From an uncultured Cyclobacteriaceae bacterium (GTDB lineage Bacteria; Bacteroidota; Bacteroidia; Cytophagales; Cyclobacteriaceae), in contig CAJQKV010000023.1 in assembly GCA_905479015.1 (NCBI GenBank), positions 1 to 64,000 of the forward strand: 64,000 nucleotides of DNA. The letters are read 5' to 3'. A program made the translations under genes and the position numbers. Each line of letters begins with the position of its first letter. Positions within the stretch are counted from its first letter, which is position 1. Positions 27,914-39,197 of this stretch are shown in pieces. The notes beneath the pieces are model-generated. The model was not told where the DNA came from and did not search any database. It saw only the letters and a program-made list of their open reading frames with translations.

Positions 27914-30148
27914 CTATAAATTAAACCAATAATTTAGCTTCAAAACTAGGGCTCGATTACGTGGCCCAAAGTATTCTACTATATAATTATCAGAATAGAC
28001 AATAAATAAGTCGGACATGGGCATGTAGCGCCACTGAAGTCTACTATTTATGTTAAAATTATCCCTTTGGGTATTGTATTGCATGAAGGTGGTCCAAAAG
28101 AAATTCTTAGAAAAATTAATTTCCGCCTTAGGGCCTAATAACAAGAGTCGCTCTGCTCCATAATTCCCAGGAAACTCTAAATTATTTTGAACAAAATTGA
28201 GACTAAAATTCCCCCATGGCTGGACACGATAGTCAACACCTAAAGAAAATTCTGTTCGGCTACCATTATAGAAACTCCCGTAAGTAAATCCTGTCGTTAA
28301 TTTAATTTCACGGCGGGTATCCGTTACATATTTGATTTGACCATAATCAAACCTGTATAATTGCGCCGGTAAGGGTGTATCATCATCTGTAAATCTAAAA
28401 GGATATAAAAGATTTACTCCTTCATGCGCATAGTTAAAATTTAAAGTACTCGTGTTTTTCATTAAAAACTTATAAGAAAATTGATGTTTGTCTTGAATCA
28501 GTTCGTTGGAGGTAGCTGTTCGGTCTCCATTGGTAGTCAGACTGAATCCATGCTGGTTGATGAAAGTATTTTCAGGATAAAAGTTATAACCCACAGTCAC
28601 CCACCAATGATTAAATCCAAGTATATAGGTAGTATCCTCTTCGGCATCATAATGTTTTTGCCGGGGTATTAAACTAAAATCATTGATATAATTATCCCCC
28701 AATCCACTGATGTTTACCGCGACATTAAAAGCGCTACCCCCATAGCCACCCAAGAGGTTAAATAAATGGTTTTCATTTTGATTTTCGTTAGAAAAAGCCA
28801 ATCCATAACCCGCCATAGCCCGCCATTTACTATCTTCAGATGAATAATTGAATTCAAGTCCGCCGATACGATTAAAGTCCTCTTCTAGAGCAGAACCATC
28901 AGCATACCCGATCCTATTATGGAAATATCCCCTTAAAACAGATCTTTTTAATACCCGCTGATGAAGTGCCAATGAACTGTAGTTATTGCCAGGTAGCTCT
29001 TGCTCTTGAGTCTGCGTATTCATCAGACCTACCCTCAAGTTTTTGTTTAAATTTCCACTCAATCTGGCACCATAAATAATCGGAATGGTATTCCCATCAT
29101 CATCTAATCCTATTTTACGACTAAAAAAAGGCTTCGCATTGGTTCCGAAATTGCTAAAAATATCACTGTTTTCTAGAAAAAAAAGTCGCCGCTCTGGAAA
29201 TCTTAAATTGACCGTGGTCAGATTGGTCTGTTGCTCATCTACATCTACTTGCGAAAAATCTGGGTTGACCGTTAAATCAAGGTTTAGGTTGGAGTTAATG
29301 GCTATTTTAGCATCCATTCCCAAAGCAAAACTTTGGTTGAAATCACCTTTACTTTCATAATCTTTATAAGCACCCCCGAGTAGGTAAGGCACCAATGAAA
29401 TATTTCTTTTTTCGTTCGTGGGTGGTTTGTCCCATATCAGCTGCCCCAAATAACCGAGATCGATCCCATAAAATTGAATCGGTACAGGTGCCCAAGAATG
29501 ATTCGTATTATTCTGTGCATCAACTCGAATAAAATTAATGCCCCAATGATTTTTCCTGCCAAATCGCAATGATTTAAACGGAATCATCATCTCGGCAGTC
29601 CATCCATTTTCAGTTATACTTGCTTCAGTATACCATTTATTATCCCATACCTTATTGTATCCGGATAACTGACCTCCCCGCCGCGCCGGTTCACCAGTAA
29701 TCAATGCTTCGGTTTGAACACCTGCTGAATTCACACCAAAAATGGCCCCATTTGTTCGCTCGTTTACAGGATCAAAAACCACTGCAAAAGCATCCCCATT
29801 CCAAAATGAATCATTATCCCTTTTCAGGGATTGCACTAAAAAGGGTCCTTTCCCATGACATTCTACACCAATATAAATAAAATCATCATCATAGGCAATC
29901 TTTACCGAGGTTTGAACTTCATCGTCAACCGGAGTACCACCCACAGGGAAATTCATCCAAAAGTTGGTAGCTATCTCGAGATCTTCCCAAAAAGGCTCAT
30001 CAAGCATCCCATCTAAACGGATTTTTTCATCCATCCTTTTAATGTTCAGGCGATAAGCTTGGGCATTGTTTTGTGCTGATAAGGCATAGGATAGAATCCA
30101 AAAATAAAGAAGGACAAAAAAACGAAGAAAATTGAATTCCATATTCAA
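27914..30148 (-). CDS. DUF5916/CBM9-like outer-membrane-associated protein, copy 2
   Basis: 744 residues. Signal peptide at 1-25 (FFVLLYFWILSYALSAQ). A carbohydrate-binding family 9-like domain (about 35-230) starts with IRLDGMLDEPFWEDLE, and the DUF5916 region (about 245-744) is a long beta-rich segment probably forming an outer-membrane barrel, ending in the aromatic LKLNYWFNL typical of barrel C-termini. The segment SQVDVDEQQTNLTTVNLRFP is the family hallmark. Highly similar to the neighbour at 30215, a tandem duplication. Function unknown; a role in glycan binding or uptake is inferred from the domain. Confidence 0.85.
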   Translation of the reverse strand: MNMEFNFLRFFVLLYFWILSYALSAQNNAQAYRLNIKRMDEKIRLDGMLDEPFWEDLEIATNFWMNFPVGGTPVDDEVQTSVKIAYDDDFIYIGVECHGKGPFLVQSLKRDNDSFWNGDAFAVVFDPVNERTNGAIFGVNSAGVQTEALITGEPARRGGQLSGYNKVWDNKWYTEASITENGWTAEMMIPFKSLRFGRKNHWGINFIRVDAQNNTNHSWAPVPIQFYGIDLGYLGQLIWDKPPTNEKRNISLVPYLLGGAYKDYESKGDFNQSFALGMDAKIAINSNLNLDLTVNPDFSQVDVDEQQTNLTTVNLRFPERRLFFLENSDIFSNFGTNAKPFFSRKIGLDDDGNTIPIIYGARLSGNLNKNLRVGLMNTQTQEQELPGNNYSSLALHQRVLKRSVLRGYFHNRIGYADGSALEEDFNRIGGLEFNYSSEDSKWRAMAGYGLAFSNENQNENHLFNLLGGYGGSAFNVAVNISGLGDNYINDFSLIPRQKHYDAEEDTTYILGFNHWWVTVGYNFYPENTFINQHGFSLTTNGDRTATSNELIQDKHQFSYKFLMKNTSTLNFNYAHEGVNLLYPFRFTDDDTPLPAQLYRFDYGQIKYVTDTRREIKLTTGFTYGSFYNGSRTEFSLGVDYRVQPWGNFSLNFVQNNLEFPGNYGAERLLLLGPKAEINFSKNFFWTTFMQYNTQRDNFNINSRLQWRYMPMSDLFIVYSDNYIVEYFGPRNRALVLKLNYWFNL

Positions 30149-30214: not shown

Positions 30215-32461
30215 CTATAAATTAAGCCAATAATTCAACTTTAAAACCAGTGTTCGATTCCTAGGGCCGAAATTTTCTACCATATAATTATCTGAATACA
30301 CTATAAATAAATCAGACATGGGTAAGTACCTCCATTGGATGCGGCTGTTGATATTGAAATTGTCCCTCTGCGTATTGTATTGAAAAAAAGTGGTCCAAAA
30401 TAGATTTCTAGAAAAAGAAACTTCAGCCTTTGGCCCCAACAAAAAAAGTGGCTGACGGCCATAAATGCCCGGAAATCTTAAATCATTATAAATAAAATTG
30501 ACACTAAAATTACCCCAAGGCTGCGCCCGATAATTAGCGGCCAATGACGTTTCCAACCGAGTACCATTATAAAAGCTTCCATAGCGCAATCCGGAACGGA
30601 TATTCACCACGCGTCTGTTATCACTTTGATACTTGATCTCACCATAATCAAAATAATACATACCGCTGGGAAGGGGATCGTCATCTTCGGTGAAACCAAA
30701 CGGGTAAAGCAAATTAACATTCTCATGTTTGTATATTAACGATAACGTACTTGAGTTGATAAATGAAAAATTATAAGACCAATCAAAAGTTTTCGCAATC
30801 AATTCATTTGATGTATCCGTCCAATCACCAACAAAGCTGAACCTCATCCCATGTTGATTAAGCAAAGTGTTATCAGGATAAAAAGTATAGCCAATTCTTG
30901 AATAAATGTGATTAAATCCAATAACATAAGTGGTATCCTCGAGTGCATCGTAATGATTTTTGCGCGGGATAAAACCAAAATCATTTTGATAATCATCTCC
31001 CATGCCTGAGACATTGGCATAGAAATTAAATGACTTACCATCAAATCCTGCAGTGGCACTATAAAAATGATTTTGATCGTCCTGATCTTCGGTAAAGGCC
31101 ATTCCATAACCTCCTGACCCCTGCCAGTTTCCATTCTGAGATCGATAACCAAACTCGAGTCCCCCGACACTATTATAATCATCTCGTAAAAGAGGTTCAT
31201 GGGTCATCAACTGACGATTATGAAAATAGCCTTTGATGATAGACCGCTGAAATACTCTTTGACGCACGGCTAACGAAGTATAATTATTACCTGGAAGTTC
31301 TTCAGATTTGGTCTGAGTATTCATAAGACTCATCCTCAAGTTTTTATTCAAATTACCACTTAATCTAGCTCCATATAGAATAGGAATAGTATTTCCCTCA
31401 TCGTCTAAGCCAATTTTACGACTAAAAAAAGGACGCATGGGTGGGATTCCAAAATCATTAAATACATCACTGTTTTCAAGAAAAAAGAGTCTTCGTTCAG
31501 GAAATCGCAAATTAACCGTCGTGAGATTAGTTTGCTGCTCATCCACATCTACTTGAGAAAAATCAGGGTTTATTGTTAAATCCAAATTCAAGCTGGAAGT
31601 CACTGCCACCTTAGCATCCAAGCCTCCCCTTTGACTATGACTCAGTGGATTGTTTGTTTCGAAATCTCGCTGTCCATTGCCGAGTAAATAAGGAATCACT
31701 GAAATGTTTTTCTTAGTCTTAGCAGGCGCTTTATCCCAAATCAGTTTACCCGTATACCCCAAATCAATCCCTCTGAATTGGACGGGCACGGGTGACCAAA
31801 CGTGATAGCTGTTATTCTTTGCATCTCCTCTTACAAAATTAACTCCCCATTCACGTTTATCCCCAAATCTGAGAGATTTGAATGGAATGGCCATTTCAAC
31901 GGTCCATTTATCCTCAAAAATTTGAACTTCTGAATACCATTTATTATCCCAAGATCCATTACTCCCACTCGAAGATCCATCACTCCCACGACGTCCCGTT
32001 TGGCCGGTCACAAGTGACTCAGACTGAACTGCTTCAGGGTTGACTGCAAAAACAAATCCATTAGTCTTTTCATTTACCGGATCAAACACCAAACCAAAAG
32101 CGTCTCCTCTCCAAAACAAAGGATTATCTCGTTTTAAAGACTGAATAATGTAAGGACCTGGACCTATACATTCTGCTGAAACATATATAAATTCATCATC
32201 ATATGTCATCCTGACCAGGGTCTTTACTTCCGGGGAAGCACGTATCCCATCTGTGGGATAACTCACCCAAAAATCAGTAGCCACAGCCGATGTTTTCCAA
32301 ACCTGCTCTTCTAATGCTCCATCAATTTTGATGCTTTCAGTCGTGCGGCCGATATTGAGCTGATAAATATCTTGTAACTTCAGATTGTTTTGAGCAAACA
32401 ATTCAATAAAAAAAACGCTGCTTAAGGCGAAGAAAAATAATGCACTATGTCTTTTTTTCAC
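30215..32461 (-). CDS. DUF5916/CBM9-like outer-membrane-associated protein, copy 1
   Basis: 748 residues from a GTG start (MKKRHSALFFFALSSVFF signal peptide, cleaved after about 23). Same layout as the neighbour at 27914: CBM9-like domain (IKIDGALEEQVWKTSA onwards), conserved SQVDVDEQQTNLTTVNLRFP, and a C-terminal barrel-like half ending LKLNYWLNL. An insertion rich in Ser and Gly (GRRGSDGSSSGSNGS) is specific to this copy. The two copies agree over nearly the whole length, so both arose from one gene and are kept intact. Confidence 0.85.
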   Translation of the reverse strand: MKKRHSALFFFALSSVFFIELFAQNNLKLQDIYQLNIGRTTESIKIDGALEEQVWKTSAVATDFWVSYPTDGIRASPEVKTLVRMTYDDEFIYVSAECIGPGPYIIQSLKRDNPLFWRGDAFGLVFDPVNEKTNGFVFAVNPEAVQSESLVTGQTGRRGSDGSSSGSNGSWDNKWYSEVQIFEDKWTVEMAIPFKSLRFGDKREWGVNFVRGDAKNNSYHVWSPVPVQFRGIDLGYTGKLIWDKAPAKTKKNISVIPYLLGNGQRDFETNNPLSHSQRGGLDAKVAVTSSLNLDLTINPDFSQVDVDEQQTNLTTVNLRFPERRLFFLENSDVFNDFGIPPMRPFFSRKIGLDDEGNTIPILYGARLSGNLNKNLRMSLMNTQTKSEELPGNNYTSLAVRQRVFQRSIIKGYFHNRQLMTHEPLLRDDYNSVGGLEFGYRSQNGNWQGSGGYGMAFTEDQDDQNHFYSATAGFDGKSFNFYANVSGMGDDYQNDFGFIPRKNHYDALEDTTYVIGFNHIYSRIGYTFYPDNTLLNQHGMRFSFVGDWTDTSNELIAKTFDWSYNFSFINSSTLSLIYKHENVNLLYPFGFTEDDDPLPSGMYYFDYGEIKYQSDNRRVVNIRSGLRYGSFYNGTRLETSLAANYRAQPWGNFSVNFIYNDLRFPGIYGRQPLFLLGPKAEVSFSRNLFWTTFFQYNTQRDNFNINSRIQWRYLPMSDLFIVYSDNYMVENFGPRNRTLVLKLNYWLNL

Positions 32462-32541: not shown

Positions 32542-35500
32542 CTATTTCTGCTTGAAAATAATTTGATCCATATTCATATCAACCTTTGTGCTATCGGCAT
32601 CACTGAACAAAAAGAAAAGGGCTTTTACGCCATTACTGACTTCATTAATTATGAAGTTATATTCAACAAAGTTTTCTTCAACCCAACTTGGCCCTTTCTC
32701 AGCACTAGGAATAGACAGTTCGGCCAAAGGCTCCCCATCAAATCCACCATAAAAAAGAGCTATTTTCCCTCCAGAAATAGGCAATATTTTGATCGTAATT
32801 TTGCCCACCCCATTCAAGTCTATATTGTCAAATCCAACATATGATCCATGTCTTAAACTACTCACATAAGCAAAAGATCCACCGTTGGGTCTTTGCTGCT
32901 CCACATTTTTGAAAACATCATAATTCTCAGCCTCTAGGTAAGGAGCTCTCAAAAATTGAATTTTAGAAGCTTCAATAGCAGGAATCTCTTCATTTCCGTG
33001 ATCTTCATAGCCCACAGATATAGCATATATCCCTTTATCAGTTCTGTTTTGAGGTTCATCTAACAAAAATGTCCCTGCTACAGGCAAGCTCGATGAATTA
33101 TTTTTATCCTTCATAGAAAGGATGTATTCAACCATACTTTCAGCATCACTGGTTGATAAATCTGGATGGGCTGCCATCAAACTATGCCCCCAATTCCCGT
33201 TGCCTCCTTCAATGATTTTCATGGCCAACATAGAAATATTATCGGAGCTATTCCCATACCTTTCAGCAATTTGATTGAAGCTTGGTCCAATTGAAGCTGA
33301 GTCCATCGCGTGACATGAACTGCAATCACTCCCCTCAATCAATTGTTTACCGGCTATTGGAAGGTTAGAATTTTCATAGAATGCTTCTCCTAGGAGTGCC
33401 AGGTCATGAGCACCTGGTAGATAAGAAAAATTGATTTTTACCTCATGTGGATCTATCGTCCCAGTAGACAAGGATCCATCCTCCAAATCAGCTACTTCAA
33501 CCTGATAATTTCGTTGACGCTCACCGAAGTAAAAAGATTGATTCCCTTCTAACGTTAAATTGATTTCTGGGGGTGCATTTCCCACACTGACATGTAAAGA
33601 AGAGGTTGCTGATGCTCCTTTATGATCTGTTACTTTCAAGCCAATTTCATAAATCCCAATCGAGTCAAATGTCAAGCTAATATGCTCACCCCTAACTTCG
33701 CGACCATCACTGATTGTCCAATCAAAAACTAATGTGTCATTAAGATCATAATCATAGGATTGACTTGCCGAGAAGGCGGCGTTAAAGGGAGCTGATCCCC
33801 TGGTCTTCGTTGCCTGGATAACAGCGTGGGGTAACCTGTTCCCTCTGTTATATTCAATTTTTACAAGCTTGGCTTCAATATTATTGGCAAAGTAATTGGC
33901 GCCGTATTCCAACACATACATGTTCCCGTATTCATCAAATTCCATGTCTATCGGTTTGTTGAATTTTTCATTAGGCAAAAAAGGCTCAATTTTTGTTACG
34001 TGCCAGTCTTCATCAAAAGACACCACTTTTATCCAATTTCTAGCCCATTCATATATAAATAATTTACCTTCATAATAATCGGGGAAAGCAGTTTTAGAAG
34101 GAGTATTGGGCTCATAATATACTGGACCCGCCATGGCACTTCGCGATCCTTTACCTAGCATTGGCCAGGTTGTCGAAACACCATAGGGGTACCAAATCAT
34201 TGGTGTCCTTGCTGGGGGCAATACTTTCATCCCTGTATTATTAGGTGATTCATTCAAAGGGTGATTGGGGTCCTGAGGCGCCCCCAATTCATTGGTCGCA
34301 AAATCTAACATTGGATACGCTTTATTATTAGCCTCAAAATAAGGCCATCCATAATTTCCTGAGGTTTTGGCTTGATTCCATTCATCATAACTCTGAGGCC
34401 CAAGTTCACTGTCTTTTCCTGAATCAGGACCTACATCTCCCCAATAAATGTATCCCGTCCTTTGATCGACCGTAAAGCGGAAAGGATTCCTGCAACCCAT
34501 TGCATAAATTTCTGGCCTTCCTTCGGTGCCATCCAAAGAAAATAAATTACCTGTCGGGATCGTATATGATCCTTCAGCTGTTGGGGTAATTCTTAGTATT
34601 TTTCCTCTGAGATCCTGTGTATTGGAGGACCCTTTTTGGGCATCAAATGGAGCTCTTCCTGCTCTTTCATCCAAAGGCGAATAGCCATCTGATTCTTTGG
34701 AACTCGTATTATCACCTGTGCTTAAGAATAAATTTCCTTTAGGCCCAAACGAAATGGATCCTCCTGAATGGCAACAAGTTTCACGTTGAACGGCCACTTC
34801 AAGAATGACTTTTTCACTCTGTAATAAAAGACTGTCTTGGTAAGCCAAAATAAACCTTGAAAGGTTTTGTCTTGGACGTCCTCCTTTCGGTGAATAATAA
34901 ATATATACCCAGTTGTTGTCCTCATAGTTCGGGTCAATAGTTAAACCAAGCATCCCATCCTCATAATTACCCTCAGTACTTATATCAAAAGTGTGCAAGA
35001 GCTTGGTCGTGCGCGTCTCAGGATCATATACCTTGAAGTTGCCTTCTCGTTCGATGAACAACACACGGCCTCCTGGTAATACGGAAAGCTCCATGGGCTC
35101 ATTCACATCTGCATCTAAAATTATTTTTGTAAATCTGTTATTACTAGGCGCTTGCTTAGTTTTAACTTGACCTGATTGGATACTCAGGGCCCCTAAGGAT
35201 TCATTTAATAATGTTCTTAAGTTCGTTGAATCGTTAAAAAAAATAATTTTCCCTCCGTCGAAATCATTCTCTTTATTCATTTGAGCTTGGTACAACCAGG
35301 GCCAATAATAGGAATTGATAGTATCAGATGGCAGCAAAAGTTCGCCTCCAGTTTGAACATATCGTTCAATATCCGATTGCCATTGAGGGTTGAGCATTTG
35401 AGGATCTGAAAGTATAATTAAAGCTCTATTTTGCCACAACGAATCTCCTAACCTTTGACGCTCAAAATCTACGACCTCAAAATCGAAGAGACTTTCTTTA

Positions 35501-35646
35501 ATAATCTGTATCCATTCAGTCTTCAACTCACTGTATGGTCCTTCTTCCTCATAAATAACTAAAAGCTTATTCTTTCTCGATTCATTGCATGACGTTATGA
35601 TCGATAAAAAAAAAGAGATCGATAAAAGAGATAAAAGAATTTTCAT
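32542..35646 (-). CDS. Multi-domain lipoprotein: ThuA-like + PQQ sugar dehydrogenase-like propeller + PKD + cytochrome c + CBM6
   Basis: 1034 residues. Lipobox LSIITSC with Cys20. About 27-150 is a ThuA/glutamine-amidotransferase-like domain. About 170-600 is a glucose/sorbosone dehydrogenase-type beta-propeller (VLFIEREGNFKVYD, DGMLGLTIDPNYEDNNWVYI, CCHSGGSISFGPKGNLFLST). About 605-690 is a PKD domain. About 755-850 is a class I cytochrome c with the haem motif C775-S-S-C778-H779 and Met candidates at 807 and 824. About 895-1034 is a CBM6-like domain (YLEAENYD onwards). It would bind a glycan at the cell surface, oxidise sugars and pass electrons to its own haem. Largest gene here, same strand as the epimerase and sulfatase genes. 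Confidence 0.88.
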   Translation of the reverse strand: MKILLSLLSISFFLSIITSCNESRKNKLLVIYEEEGPYSELKTEWIQIIKESLFDFEVVDFERQRLGDSLWQNRALIILSDPQMLNPQWQSDIERYVQTGGELLLPSDTINSYYWPWLYQAQMNKENDFDGGKIIFFNDSTNLRTLLNESLGALSIQSGQVKTKQAPSNNRFTKIILDADVNEPMELSVLPGGRVLFIEREGNFKVYDPETRTTKLLHTFDISTEGNYEDGMLGLTIDPNYEDNNWVYIYYSPKGGRPRQNLSRFILAYQDSLLLQSEKVILEVAVQRETCCHSGGSISFGPKGNLFLSTGDNTSSKESDGYSPLDERAGRAPFDAQKGSSNTQDLRGKILRITPTAEGSYTIPTGNLFSLDGTEGRPEIYAMGCRNPFRFTVDQRTGYIYWGDVGPDSGKDSELGPQSYDEWNQAKTSGNYGWPYFEANNKAYPMLDFATNELGAPQDPNHPLNESPNNTGMKVLPPARTPMIWYPYGVSTTWPMLGKGSRSAMAGPVYYEPNTPSKTAFPDYYEGKLFIYEWARNWIKVVSFDEDWHVTKIEPFLPNEKFNKPIDMEFDEYGNMYVLEYGANYFANNIEAKLVKIEYNRGNRLPHAVIQATKTRGSAPFNAAFSASQSYDYDLNDTLVFDWTISDGREVRGEHISLTFDSIGIYEIGLKVTDHKGASATSSLHVSVGNAPPEINLTLEGNQSFYFGERQRNYQVEVADLEDGSLSTGTIDPHEVKINFSYLPGAHDLALLGEAFYENSNLPIAGKQLIEGSDCSSCHAMDSASIGPSFNQIAERYGNSSDNISMLAMKIIEGGNGNWGHSLMAAHPDLSTSDAESMVEYILSMKDKNNSSSLPVAGTFLLDEPQNRTDKGIYAISVGYEDHGNEEIPAIEASKIQFLRAPYLEAENYDVFKNVEQQRPNGGSFAYVSSLRHGSYVGFDNIDLNGVGKITIKILPISGGKIALFYGGFDGEPLAELSIPSAEKGPSWVEENFVEYNFIINEVSNGVKALFFLFSDADSTKVDMNMDQIIFKQK

Positions 35647-35704
35647 ATGTAGTTAATCTTTATTTTAAAAAAAACGTTCAGCAAAAATGTTTTTTTTAGC
35701 CGCT

Positions 35705-36841
35705 TCACAAGAGGCCAAACTTATAAATGCAGATGGAATAATAGGGCTCCTCTGCCGCTAATGAGGTTGAAGGAAATTGAATCTTATTAGGACTATCAGG
35801 GAAATGTTGGGTTTCCAAACAGAAGGCACCACGATGTTCATAATTTTTATCCTTTTTACCCTTCACCGTACCATCTAAAAAATTACCCCCATAAAACTGC
35901 ATGCCTGGCTCGTTGGTATATACTTCCAGCGTTCTTTTTGACACGGGTTCAACCACTCGCGCAGCAAAACTCACTAATGAATCGGACGGATTCAATACAT
36001 AATTATGGTCATATCCGTGCCCATAAGTCAACTGGTCATCTACCGCATCTATTCGACTCCCAATTTGAGTGGGTAATAAAAAGTCAAAAGGAGTATTTAC
36101 TACCTTTTGAATCACCCCTGTAGGTATCAACTGAGCATCAATGGGTGTAAAATAATCTGCATTAATTTGCAACAGATGATCATTCACATTTCCGTTGCCT
36201 GCTCCTTTTAGGTTAAAAAAAGAATGATGCGTAAGATTGATGATGGTGGTTTGATCGGATTGTGCGAAATACTGAATACTTAACTCATTTTCATCTGTAA
36301 GTTGATACTCAACGCTCACGGTTAAATTCCCGGGATAACCCTCCTCCATGTGTGGTGAAAAATAGCTCAAAAAAAGCTTATTCTCTGTAAATGAATTCAC
36401 TTTCCAAACAACGGATTCAAAGCCTTTATTTCCGCCATGTAAGTGATTTTCTCCATTATTTTTTACCAAAAGATACGTACTGTCCTCTAAAACAAAACGC
36501 CCCTTTTTAATACGGTTTCCATACCGGCCGATCAACGCACCAAAATATTTTTCTTTAGATTTCTGATAGGTATCCATGTCATTAAACCCCAAGACGACAT
36601 CTTCAAAATGACCTGTTTTATCAGGCAGCCATAGGGAGACCACCCGGCCCCCATAATTGGTGATTTGAGCGGTTACCCCCCATTTATTTTTGAGCGTATA
36701 TAATTTCACCTCTTGATCATCTATGATGGTATCAAAAGTCTCAGAAGAAATCAAATTCATGCCCATTTTTTTCTCAAAAAAACATGTGGTAAAGCATAAG
36801 TTAATTGAAATTAACAAAAGGCTTCGCAAACGTCTTTTCAT
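35705..36841 (-). CDS. Aldose 1-epimerase, exported
   Basis: 378 residues. A hydrophobic N-terminus with a Cys at 16-20 (LLLISINLCFTTCFF) suggests export, possibly as a lipoprotein. The mutarotase domain shows ITNYGGRVVSLWLPD, GRYGNRIKKGRF, NNGENHLHGGNKGF (substrate His), NLTHHSFFNLKG (catalytic His) and the C-terminal YTNEPGMQFYGGNFLDG with the catalytic Glu region. It interconverts alpha and beta aldoses, so it would feed anomers to the dehydrogenase encoded 58 bases downstream. Confidence 0.9.
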   Translation of the reverse strand: MKRRLRSLLLISINLCFTTCFFEKKMGMNLISSETFDTIIDDQEVKLYTLKNKWGVTAQITNYGGRVVSLWLPDKTGHFEDVVLGFNDMDTYQKSKEKYFGALIGRYGNRIKKGRFVLEDSTYLLVKNNGENHLHGGNKGFESVVWKVNSFTENKLFLSYFSPHMEEGYPGNLTVSVEYQLTDENELSIQYFAQSDQTTIINLTHHSFFNLKGAGNGNVNDHLLQINADYFTPIDAQLIPTGVIQKVVNTPFDFLLPTQIGSRIDAVDDQLTYGHGYDHNYVLNPSDSLVSFAARVVEPVSKRTLEVYTNEPGMQFYGGNFLDGTVKGKKDKNYEHRGAFCLETQHFPDSPNKIQFPSTSLAAEEPYYSICIYKFGLL

Positions 36842-36898
36842 AATTCGTAGTCAATATTATTTGAGCATCACACAACAAAATCACATGAACCGGGAAAG

Positions 36899-38563
36899 TT
36901 ATTCTACCCATCCATTATCAAAGTAGACCTCAATGAATTCTTGATCCAATTCCTCAGAATCTTGATATTTTATTCTCATGTCTTTTAATTCCAATTTTAA
37001 TTGGGTCACAATGCTGGCATACGCCGGATCATCGTATACATTATTTAATTCTGATGGATCCTTCATCCTATCGTAGAGCTCCCACTCATCTACGTCATAA
37101 TAAAAGTGAACCAATTTATAGGCTTTAGAAACGATCCCGAAATGCCTTTTTACCATATGGACGGCAGGGTACTCATAATAATGATAATAAACGGCCTCGC
37201 GCGTCCAGGTAGCTTCACCTTTCAACAAGGGCAAAAGACTTTCTCCTTGCATATCTCCTGGCGCTTTGATATCGGCTACCTCCAACAAAGTCTGTGCAAA
37301 GTCTAAGTTTTGAACCATTTCATCATTCGTGCTTCCGGGAGCAATATGTCCTGGCCATTGGATTAAAAGTGGGGTTTTAAAAGACTCATCATATATGAAT
37401 CTTTTATCAAACCAACCATGCTCTCCTAAATAAAATCCTTGGTCTGAAGTATAAATAATCATCGTATTTTGGTCCAATCCGGTTTCTTCAAGATAATCTA
37501 GTAACCTACCAACATTGTCATCTACAGACGCAATGGTTCCTAAATAATCCTGCATGTATCTTTGATATTTCCACCGCATTTTCTCCTCCCTTGACATGCT
37601 GGGCCAATGTACCTTAAACTCAAGATTAATTGAATCAATAATGGGATCATATAAGGCCTTTTGAGCTTCATTTGCACGGTTGTAAGGTCCAGAAAATCCA
37701 TCTACCTCCTTCCATTTCATCGCCGGTATCTCCGGTAGTACGCCACCCATTTCAGCTAGGGTTTTGGGTCTGATTTTAGCATCATGGCCATACTTCATGT
37801 GAGACAAAAGATTCATTTCAGCTTCCTTTGCCGCTGAGCCTCTCCCTTGATAATCATCAAAAAGGGTTGGGGGTTCTGGAAAATGTTTCTTACTAAATTC
37901 TTTGAATTTATCAGCACGTGGCCACCAGGGTCGATGGGGTGCTTTGTGCAAGTACATCAACATAAACGGCTTTTCAGGATCTCTTTTTAGGTCTAGCCAA
38001 TTTAGGGTAAGATCCGTAATAATATCAGTAACGTAACCTATAATAGTCGTATCCCCCTTTGGGGTAATGAAATCAGGATTGATGTAATTTCCCTGTCCAG
38101 GTAAAATCAGAAAATCATCAATACCTTTGGGATTATTTCCAAAATGTAATTTTCCAAACATCGCCGTCTGATAGCCCGCTTGTTGAAAAAGCAATGGGAA
38201 CGTAATGTTGGTGGTATCAAAGGGCATCAGGTTGTCTATTTTTCCATTCAAATGTGTATGCTTACCAGTCAGGATGGTGGCTCTTGAAGGGGCACATATT
38301 GAATTGGTAACACAGGCATTGTTAAAAAGCATTCCTTGTTGCGCGATGCGATCAATATTCGGGGTCACTATTAAGTTATCCTGATAGGCACTTATGGCTT
38401 GATACGCGTGATCATCAGACATGATGAAAATAATGTTAGGTCTTACAGGTTTTTTTAAAGCAACCTCCATCCTACCGCATCCCATCATAAGGATGATGAT
38501 AAGTGATGCATAAACGCCTTTTTTAATTCTGCAGTACCTAATTGTAATTCTTGACTTCATCAT
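36899..38563 (-). CDS. Sulfatase (type I, formylglycine-dependent), lipoprotein
   Basis: 554 residues. Lipobox LIIILMMGCG, Cys29. The metal Asp pair lies in PNIIFIMSDDHAYQ (D50, D51). The modification motif C90-A-P-S-R94 followed by ATILTGK is intact, so the Cys can become formylglycine. Further sulfatase motifs: TAMFGKLHFG, YTSDQGFYLGEHGW and the RFIYDESFKTPL segment. A periplasmic or surface enzyme removing sulfate esters from a glycan. It is the first gene of the minus-strand sugar-processing run. The maturation enzyme is not in the window. Confidence 0.92.
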   Translation of the reverse strand: MMKSRITIRYCRIKKGVYASLIIILMMGCGRMEVALKKPVRPNIIFIMSDDHAYQAISAYQDNLIVTPNIDRIAQQGMLFNNACVTNSICAPSRATILTGKHTHLNGKIDNLMPFDTTNITFPLLFQQAGYQTAMFGKLHFGNNPKGIDDFLILPGQGNYINPDFITPKGDTTIIGYVTDIITDLTLNWLDLKRDPEKPFMLMYLHKAPHRPWWPRADKFKEFSKKHFPEPPTLFDDYQGRGSAAKEAEMNLLSHMKYGHDAKIRPKTLAEMGGVLPEIPAMKWKEVDGFSGPYNRANEAQKALYDPIIDSINLEFKVHWPSMSREEKMRWKYQRYMQDYLGTIASVDDNVGRLLDYLEETGLDQNTMIIYTSDQGFYLGEHGWFDKRFIYDESFKTPLLIQWPGHIAPGSTNDEMVQNLDFAQTLLEVADIKAPGDMQGESLLPLLKGEATWTREAVYYHYYEYPAVHMVKRHFGIVSKAYKLVHFYYDVDEWELYDRMKDPSELNNVYDDPAYASIVTQLKLELKDMRIKYQDSEELDQEFIEVYFDNGWVE

Positions 38564-38984: not shown

Positions 38985-39005
38985 TATAAATTAATACAAA
39001 TAATT

Positions 39006-39197
39006 ATGAGTAACGGTATAGTAAAATTTTTTAATAACACCAAAGGATTTGGATTTATCACACCTGATGAAGGTGGGAAAGATGTGTTTGTTCACCAAAC
39101 AGGTCTAACAGAAGAAATTCGTGAAGGCGACAAAGTAAGCTACGATGTGCAAGATGGCCAGAAAGGCTTGAATGCAGTAAACGTCAAAGTTTCCTAA
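39006..39197 (+). CDS. Cold-shock domain protein
   Basis: 63 residues from the ATG at 39006 ([18 protein letters not shown]); an upstream in-frame ATG adds 8 residues that do not fit the family. RNP1 is KGFGFITP and RNP2 is VFVHQTG, so the single-stranded nucleic-acid binding face is intact. It acts as an RNA chaperone. It has its own promoter box and terminator. Confidence 0.95.

Follow-up and report, generated by a model that had tools for sequence, protein, structure and literature searches.

A propeller-cytochrome c lipoprotein and its small operon in an uncultured Cyclobacteriaceae bacterium

A five-gene set and its lipoprotein

We analyzed a stretch of 64,000 nucleotides (hereafter the window) from contig 23 (CAJQKV010000023.1) of the 2.93-Mb genome of an uncultured Cyclobacteriaceae bacterium, with a focus on a gene that encodes a 1034-residue lipoprotein combining a sugar dehydrogenase-type propeller with a cytochrome c (32542..35646, minus strand). 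The named close relatives of this genome are uncultured marine Flammeovirgaceae or Cyclobacteriaceae metagenome-assembled genomes, two of which carry the label UBA4465. In the list of open reading frames (ORFs) the gene is the third of five co-directional genes on the minus strand, which encode a sulfatase (554 residues, 36899..38563), an exported aldose 1-epimerase or mutarotase of the GalM type (378 residues, 35705..36841), the lipoprotein, and two DUF5916 proteins, a (748 residues, 30215..32461) and b (744 residues, 27914..30148). From the sulfatase end downward their coordinates leave intergenic gaps of about 58, 59, 81 and 67 bases. A first-pass annotation of this DNA had described the same genes at these places and in this order, and the ORFs bear it out; both DUF5916 genes fall outside the span 32542-38563 that it named. 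All features given below lie on the minus strand unless stated otherwise.

The lipoprotein had been annotated as a five-domain protein, and four of these domains hold. Three score over the Pfam cut-off, namely GSDH (PF07995, 127.4 bits), which covers the propeller, PKD_4 (39.4 bits; PKD domain at 33583..33831) and Cytochrom_C (34.3 bits; 33109..33354). The C-terminal CBM6-like domain (32551..32934) scores 22.6 bits with CBM_6, below the Pfam cut-off of 28.9, and is backed by a profile built from 14 family members that matches solved CBM6 structures (2v4v, 1gmm and others). The cytochrome belongs to class I, with CSSCH at residues 775-779 and Met824. The haem motif CxxCH and Met824, both ligands of class I cytochromes c, are invariant in 14/14 family members, and solved cytochromes c-551/552 match the family domain in a profile search. 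A single lipobox, ITSC, occupies residues 17-20; beyond it the protein has cysteines only at positions 291, 292 and 385 and in the haem motif (775 and 778). In one relative of the same genus (L044, 9995-13103) the reading frame of the lipoprotein is interrupted ahead of CBM6, perhaps through faulty assembly or through genuine gene decay.

The fifth domain had been read as ThuA-like, and this part of the annotation did not stand. Neither the window protein nor its place in the genome gives a Pfam match to ThuA (PF06283), and the GIH, TDEWY and GHT segments are missing; an intact ThuA domain was rejected on these grounds. A ThuA profile built in this analysis, together with the alignment, detects a partial N-terminal remnant (26.6 bits) at about residues 26-160 (35167..35571) with an internal deletion. 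Among 34 distinct homologues from the loci examined here (sequences sharing one 120-residue stretch were counted once), ThuA is full in 10, shortened in 17 and absent in 7. In a tree of these homologues the 1034-residue protein falls within a clade of 16 shortened forms with support 100/100. The one further shortened form (L069) sits elsewhere in the tree, where the label needs two changes, and a single origin of the shortened domain may still be compatible with the tree. In the alignment the shortened forms lack the internal segment with the TDEWY-like and HPxxWY motifs, and also GIH and GHT, and mostly keep the start and the DGG end of the domain. We read the ThuA end as an eroded remnant, in a clade that has relatives with full ThuA and has itself lost the central part together with the conserved motifs. 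Because of this loss a working ThuA active site is unlikely in the clade; to our knowledge the function of ThuA itself is poorly known. Literature searches found no report on ThuA with sorbosone dehydrogenase and sulfatase in Bacteroidetes, and for ThuA with PQQ-dependent (pyrroloquinoline quinone-dependent), cytochrome c and PKD domains in Bacteroidetes they returned work on the Teredinibacter secretome only.

The propeller pocket and its cofactor

Residues 167-603 (33838..35148) are predicted to form a six-bladed propeller with the fold of the PQQ sugar dehydrogenases, in agreement with the first-pass annotation. In addition to the GSDH match, the best structural matches of the AlphaFold2 model, whether full-length or propeller-only, are 3a9g (Z 34.2), 2ism (Z 34.1) and 1cq1 (Z 31.6), and Foldseek matches the propeller model to PQQ sugar dehydrogenases with an E value of 1e-18. 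The AA12 structures are distant (Z 25, 11-13% identity). The mean predicted local distance difference test score (pLDDT) is 72.2 for the full-length model and 75.2 for the propeller alone, with the loops that cover the pocket below 50 in both. The propeller family ranges over Bacteroidota and Rhodothermota; its alignment omits L044, whose frame is broken, and the standalone L050.

The ligands of PQQ and calcium expected in such a propeller are kept in part. His293 aligns with the catalytic His144 of soluble glucose dehydrogenase (sGDH) and is present in 34/34 family members. Arg386-Asn387 (34486..34491) aligns with the Arg-Asn pair of sGDH that contacts the quinone oxygens, which we take to be Arg228-Asn229; the Arg is found in 34/34 and the Asn in 33/34 members. 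Gly406-Pro407 (34426..34431) occurs in 34/34 members by sequence alignment, with low model pLDDT at the site, and is presumably the counterpart of the Gly-Pro of sGDH that binds calcium. The roles of the Arg-Asn pair in sGDH-type enzymes are treated in passages of PMC6881789. In contrast, the Arg-x-Arg near the C-terminus of the propeller, which grips the PQQ carboxylates, is found in 0/34 family members, and the window protein has Lys564-Pro565-Ile566 (33949..33957) where its PQQ-binding relatives carry this motif. Arg-x-Arg is present in the solved 7cdy, 2g8s, 2ism and 3a9g and in 4/7 standalone GSDHs. Conversely, two cysteines directly precede the catalytic His (Cys291-Cys292-His293, 34768..34776) in 34/34 family members and in 0/7 standalone GSDHs. 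The 34-member alignment also holds family-specific invariant arginines at positions 171, 200, 288, 347, 390 and 536.

Bacterial PQQ alcohol dehydrogenases are eight-bladed and carry a vicinal disulfide placed over PQQ. Vicinal disulfides are mentioned for these enzymes in passages of PMC13384848, and any resemblance of Cys291-Cys292 to them may reflect convergence. Compared with the single-domain Asd and sGDH enzymes (3a9g, 2ism, 2g8s, 1cq1), which have Arg-x-Arg, the window family shares the six-bladed fold, the catalytic His, Arg-Asn and Gly-Pro. The retention of these residues, the loss of Arg-x-Arg and the addition of an invariant Cys-Cys suggest that the family has left canonical PQQ binding.

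We also searched for PQQ supply. PqqE was over its cut-off in 0/24 genomes, and PqqC in 0/24 genomes and in 0/118 genomes drawn over the phylum; no control genome was over either cut-off, so these absences are suggestive and were not used as proof. Below the cut-off, PqqE matches are widespread and include all 14 controls, which makes them uninformative, and weak PqqC matches occur in 8/118 genomes. Because both arginines of Arg-x-Arg are lost in 34/34 members and no PqqE or PqqC is over the cut-off (the controls being equally silent), the PQQ dependence of the 1034-residue protein is doubtful and unproven. Partial loss of PQQ ligands need not abolish binding, however, since the fungal AA12 enzyme CcPDH of Coprinopsis cinerea binds PQQ without equivalents of sGDH Arg408 and Lys377. 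According to passages of PMC6881789, Arg273 serves in CcPDH in place of Arg408, and its Arg621 matches a bacterial Arg.

Two known systems resemble the lipoprotein in architecture. CcPDH (AA8-AA12-CBM1), as described in passages of PMC6881789, joins a PQQ-fold propeller to a cytochrome and a carbohydrate-binding module and functions along the lines proposed here for the lipoprotein, but it is fungal, uses AA8 haem b and other PQQ ligands, and matches structurally (6jt5) at 13% identity. Membership of the window protein in AA12 with AA8 was rejected, as its cytochrome is a class I haem c protein (PF00034, CxxCH) rather than AA8 haem b. The nearest precedent, by analogy, would be the Teredinibacter turnerae proteins TERTU_3803 and TERTU_2567 (PMC10916295, PMC12055684), which in passages of these papers are likewise secreted and combine a GSDH-annotated propeller, a CxxCH cytochrome and a carbohydrate-binding module. 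They are analogues, likened to the window protein by description; their domains are given as PF08450-X173, X183 and X122, and the same passages mention no ThuA remnant or CBM6. In an excerpt of Rajagopal et al. 2024 (PMC10916295), the PF08450-X173 propeller pair of TERTU_3803 neither bound PQQ nor had glucose dehydrogenase activity.

Operon partners and gene neighbourhoods

The two upstream partners carry intact motifs, as their annotation would predict. The sulfatase (Sulfatase and SGSH_C domains; PF00884, 182 bits) has the formylglycine motif C-x-P-x-R, as CAPSR, at residues 90-94 and is thus of type I (S1). Its nearest solved relatives are 9s03, 7p24 (mucin-desulfating sulfatase) and 5g2v (GlcNAc-6-sulfatase), from which we would guess a 6-sulfated hexosamine as its substrate. 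This operon is probably not the main locus for sulfated polysaccharides; that is likely a cluster on contig 5, where five of the 11 PF00884 matches of the window genome lie together at about 116-137 kb (L072, L073), at the contig end. The mutarotase (Pfam Aldose_epim, 289 bits) contains the motifs LHGG, HHSF and LETQ and aligns with solved mutarotases; these motifs contribute the two catalytic-site His and the C-terminal Glu. The N-termini of both enzymes look signal-like by eye, and a simple pattern found no canonical lipobox in them. The DUF5916 proteins, assigned by Pfam, are 61% identical over 741 residues and both have weak CBM9-like N-termini. For protein a, a structure-database search gave no solved relative at E 0.1, and our searches found no literature on DUF5916; a role in the outer membrane is a guess. 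A short gene resembling a cold-shock protein was seen by eye on the plus strand (39003-39190), in the divergent stretch that precedes the sulfatase gene.

A conserved association of these genes, on which the first-pass annotation made its reading depend, is true of one genus only. All five genes occur in the same order in 7/8 other loci of the genus (uncultured Flammeovirgaceae), two of them with split frames, in DUF5916b (L043) and in both the lipoprotein and DUF5916b (L044). In the eighth (L042) the lipoprotein gene is kept, the DUF5916 pair is absent and the contig ends before the upstream genes. The mutarotase gene likewise adjoins the lipoprotein gene in 7/8 of these loci, the eighth being cut by the contig end. 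The ordered set was found in 0/24 loci of family members other than the genus orthologues of the window gene, which include three paralogues of the same genus, two of them in the genome of the window itself. Since the genes to either side of the set show the same degree of synteny within the genus, this synteny is of little weight. The grouping of the lipoprotein gene with those of the sulfatase, the mutarotase and the two DUF5916 proteins is a feature of the genus, and the ordered set was rejected as a sign of a wide pathway. Among the outside loci a sulfatase gene lies beside the L052 family member and a distant GalM (34% identity) near that of L048. Within the genus, L038 (17918-20365) has a gene for a TonB-plug protein between DUF5916b and the next gene; L040, L041, L043 and L044 have a gap of the same size, and in the window the corresponding interval is only about 150 bases long.

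For the wider family we defined neighbours as the ORFs within three genes of the same 24 family members that are not genus orthologues of the window gene, and scanned 109 of the 137; the 28 unscanned ORFs were mostly short and included one more family member and a fusion gene at L064, the latter scanned separately. As a control we used 20 standalone GSDH genes from the same or related genomes (114/118 neighbours scanned); the strict pattern R.R[DENW]V occurs in 6/20 of these genes, so the control represents standalone GSDHs generally rather than proven Asd. The xylose-isomerase-like family AP_endonuc_2 was found in 14/109 ORFs near the family vs 2/114 near the controls (Fisher p 0.0014). By locus the figures are 11/24 vs at most 2/20 (Fisher p 0.018), the family count coming from a profile built here and trained partly on the same proteins. 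Matches to AP_endonuc_2 number 3-40 per genome among 12 genomes. The domain 3keto-disac_hyd was found in 4/109 family neighbours and is absent from the 25 families listed for the controls. Gfo/Idh genes are no rarer near the controls (4/114) than near the family (2/109, C3 domain).

Several loci bring these families together. At L064 the family member is preceded by genes for a Gfo/Idh protein, an AP_endonuc_2 protein and a fusion of a PA14/3-keto hydrolase with a cytochrome c domain; the fusion gene lies between the AP_endonuc_2 gene and the family member. Contig 31 of the window genome (L071, 1533-9470) holds two Gfo/Idh genes, an AP_endonuc_2 gene, a gene for a 1207-residue PA14/3-keto-disaccharide hydrolase protein and a second AP_endonuc_2 gene. 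The 1207-residue fusion includes a cytochrome-like segment that shares 44% identity with the cytochrome domain of the window lipoprotein, and the cluster is likely a 3-ketoglycoside cluster. One of the two paralogues in the window genome (L059) has an AP_endonuc_2-like gene, below the Pfam cut-off, just upstream. In another genus, L052 (6406-16355) carries genes for a 3-keto hydrolase, a sulfatase, AP_endonuc_2 and a PF01011-type PQQ protein with a cytochrome beside the family member.

According to passages of PMC9007349, on a periplasmic 3-ketoglycoside pathway, DUF1080 is a 3-keto-disaccharide hydrolase in BT2157 and is proposed to be so in Caulobacter near LacABC. The LacABC-type 3-dehydrogenase is a different protein set. 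Because the wider family lies near DUF1080 and AP_endonuc_2 genes, and because of the activity of DUF1080, we suggest that the family may make or handle 3-keto sugars. For the window member the idea is one of family resemblance only, as its operon carries no such gene.

A candidate extracytoplasmic dehydrogenase and its alternatives

What lies at this locus is a real lipoprotein, putatively a surface redox protein, within an ordinary-looking small operon. From the directly observed domains, motifs, fold match, synteny and neighbour enrichment, the reading we favour, at about even odds, is that the protein oxidises carbohydrates outside the cytoplasm as a dehydrogenase that supplies electrons to haem c, with an unproven cofactor and possibly giving 3-keto glycosides rather than lactones. 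The lipobox would place it at the surface or in the periplasm, where CBM6 and PKD would hold it close to a polysaccharide. Oxidation of a carbohydrate or glycoside would take place in the propeller, and the electrons would travel through the fused class I haem c to the respiratory chain. Judging from the genes around other family members, the chemistry would be that of 3-keto sugars rather than a plain oxidation at C1. The sulfatase would probably uncover the sugar, and an outer-membrane role is conceivable for the DUF5916 proteins. Several observations weigh against this proposal. The structures of human HHIP, a Hedgehog-binding signalling protein without a cytochrome, match the propeller model with Z 30, almost equal to the dehydrogenases, so fold alone is no proof of catalysis. 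The pLDDT is below 50 at residues 405-444, in the pocket loops of the model. The neighbourhood loci are not independent, several coming from one genome, and Pfam finds no 3-keto-disaccharide hydrolase (PF06439) or isomerase gene in the window operon; elsewhere the window genome has nine PF06439 matches, eight over the cut-off. L051, the nearest relative outside the genus (55% identity), has no such genes among its scanned neighbours either.

A canonical PQQ aldose dehydrogenase that scavenges its PQQ would take from the mutarotase the required anomer, oxidise C1 to a lactone and pass electrons to haem c. The retained catalytic His, Arg-Asn and Gly-Pro argue for it, as does the mutarotase gene about 59 bases upstream, adjoining in nearly all the genus loci, and replacement ligands are possible as in AA12, with the invariant arginines listed above as candidates. 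We nevertheless hold it unlikely, given the loss of both Arg-x-Arg arginines throughout the family, the lack of PqqE and PqqC over the cut-off (with the caveat of the silent controls), the absence of a lactonase among the ORFs and Pfam matches of the operon, and the T. turnerae pair, which despite its GSDH annotation showed neither PQQ binding nor glucose oxidation in the excerpt cited above. Alternatively, the propeller could be a non-catalytic binding or sensing module, like that of HHIP, whose cytochrome relays electrons for another enzyme. The HHIP match, the missing PQQ arginines and a ThuA part already without its motifs would fit this, but an invariant Cys-Cys-His, Gly-Pro and Arg-Asn (the Asn in all but one member) are unexpected for a dead site, and the fused haem is conserved with both ligands; we regard it as quite improbable. 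Equally improbable to us is a PQQ-free glycoside 3-dehydrogenase of quinoprotein fold, in which another cofactor, or the vicinal Cys-Cys as a two-electron centre, would deliver electrons to the protein's own haem c.

The operon itself may be a chance neighbourhood kept by slow rearrangement in one genus, its genes sharing no pathway, which is compatible with any reading of the lipoprotein. The equal synteny of the flanking genes, the confinement of the set to the genus and L042, where the lipoprotein gene stays without the DUF5916 pair, favour this view, whereas the single strand with its short gaps, and a sulfatase, mutarotase and lipoprotein all linked to carbohydrates by family, count against it; we find it rather doubtful. 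The pathway of the first-pass annotation, in which a sugar is desulfated, bound, interconverted and oxidised outside the cytoplasm, is possible; its PQQ, ThuA and wide-conservation parts are not favoured.

In all, the dehydrogenase reading concerns a family whose sequence and fold both match the PQQ sugar dehydrogenases, from a phylum whose sampled genomes had no PQQ-synthesis gene over the cut-off (the controls being silent as well). The loss of Arg-x-Arg and the gain of Cys-Cys-His make the question of its cofactor directly testable. Should the cofactor not be PQQ, labels assigned by fold would be misleading, and pathway maps would lack a redox route into the breakdown of polysaccharides or 3-keto glycosides. 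If a PQQ-free glycoside 3-dehydrogenase were true, it would be a further entry to the breakdown of 3-keto glycans, beside the Gfo/Idh and LacABC-type enzymes.

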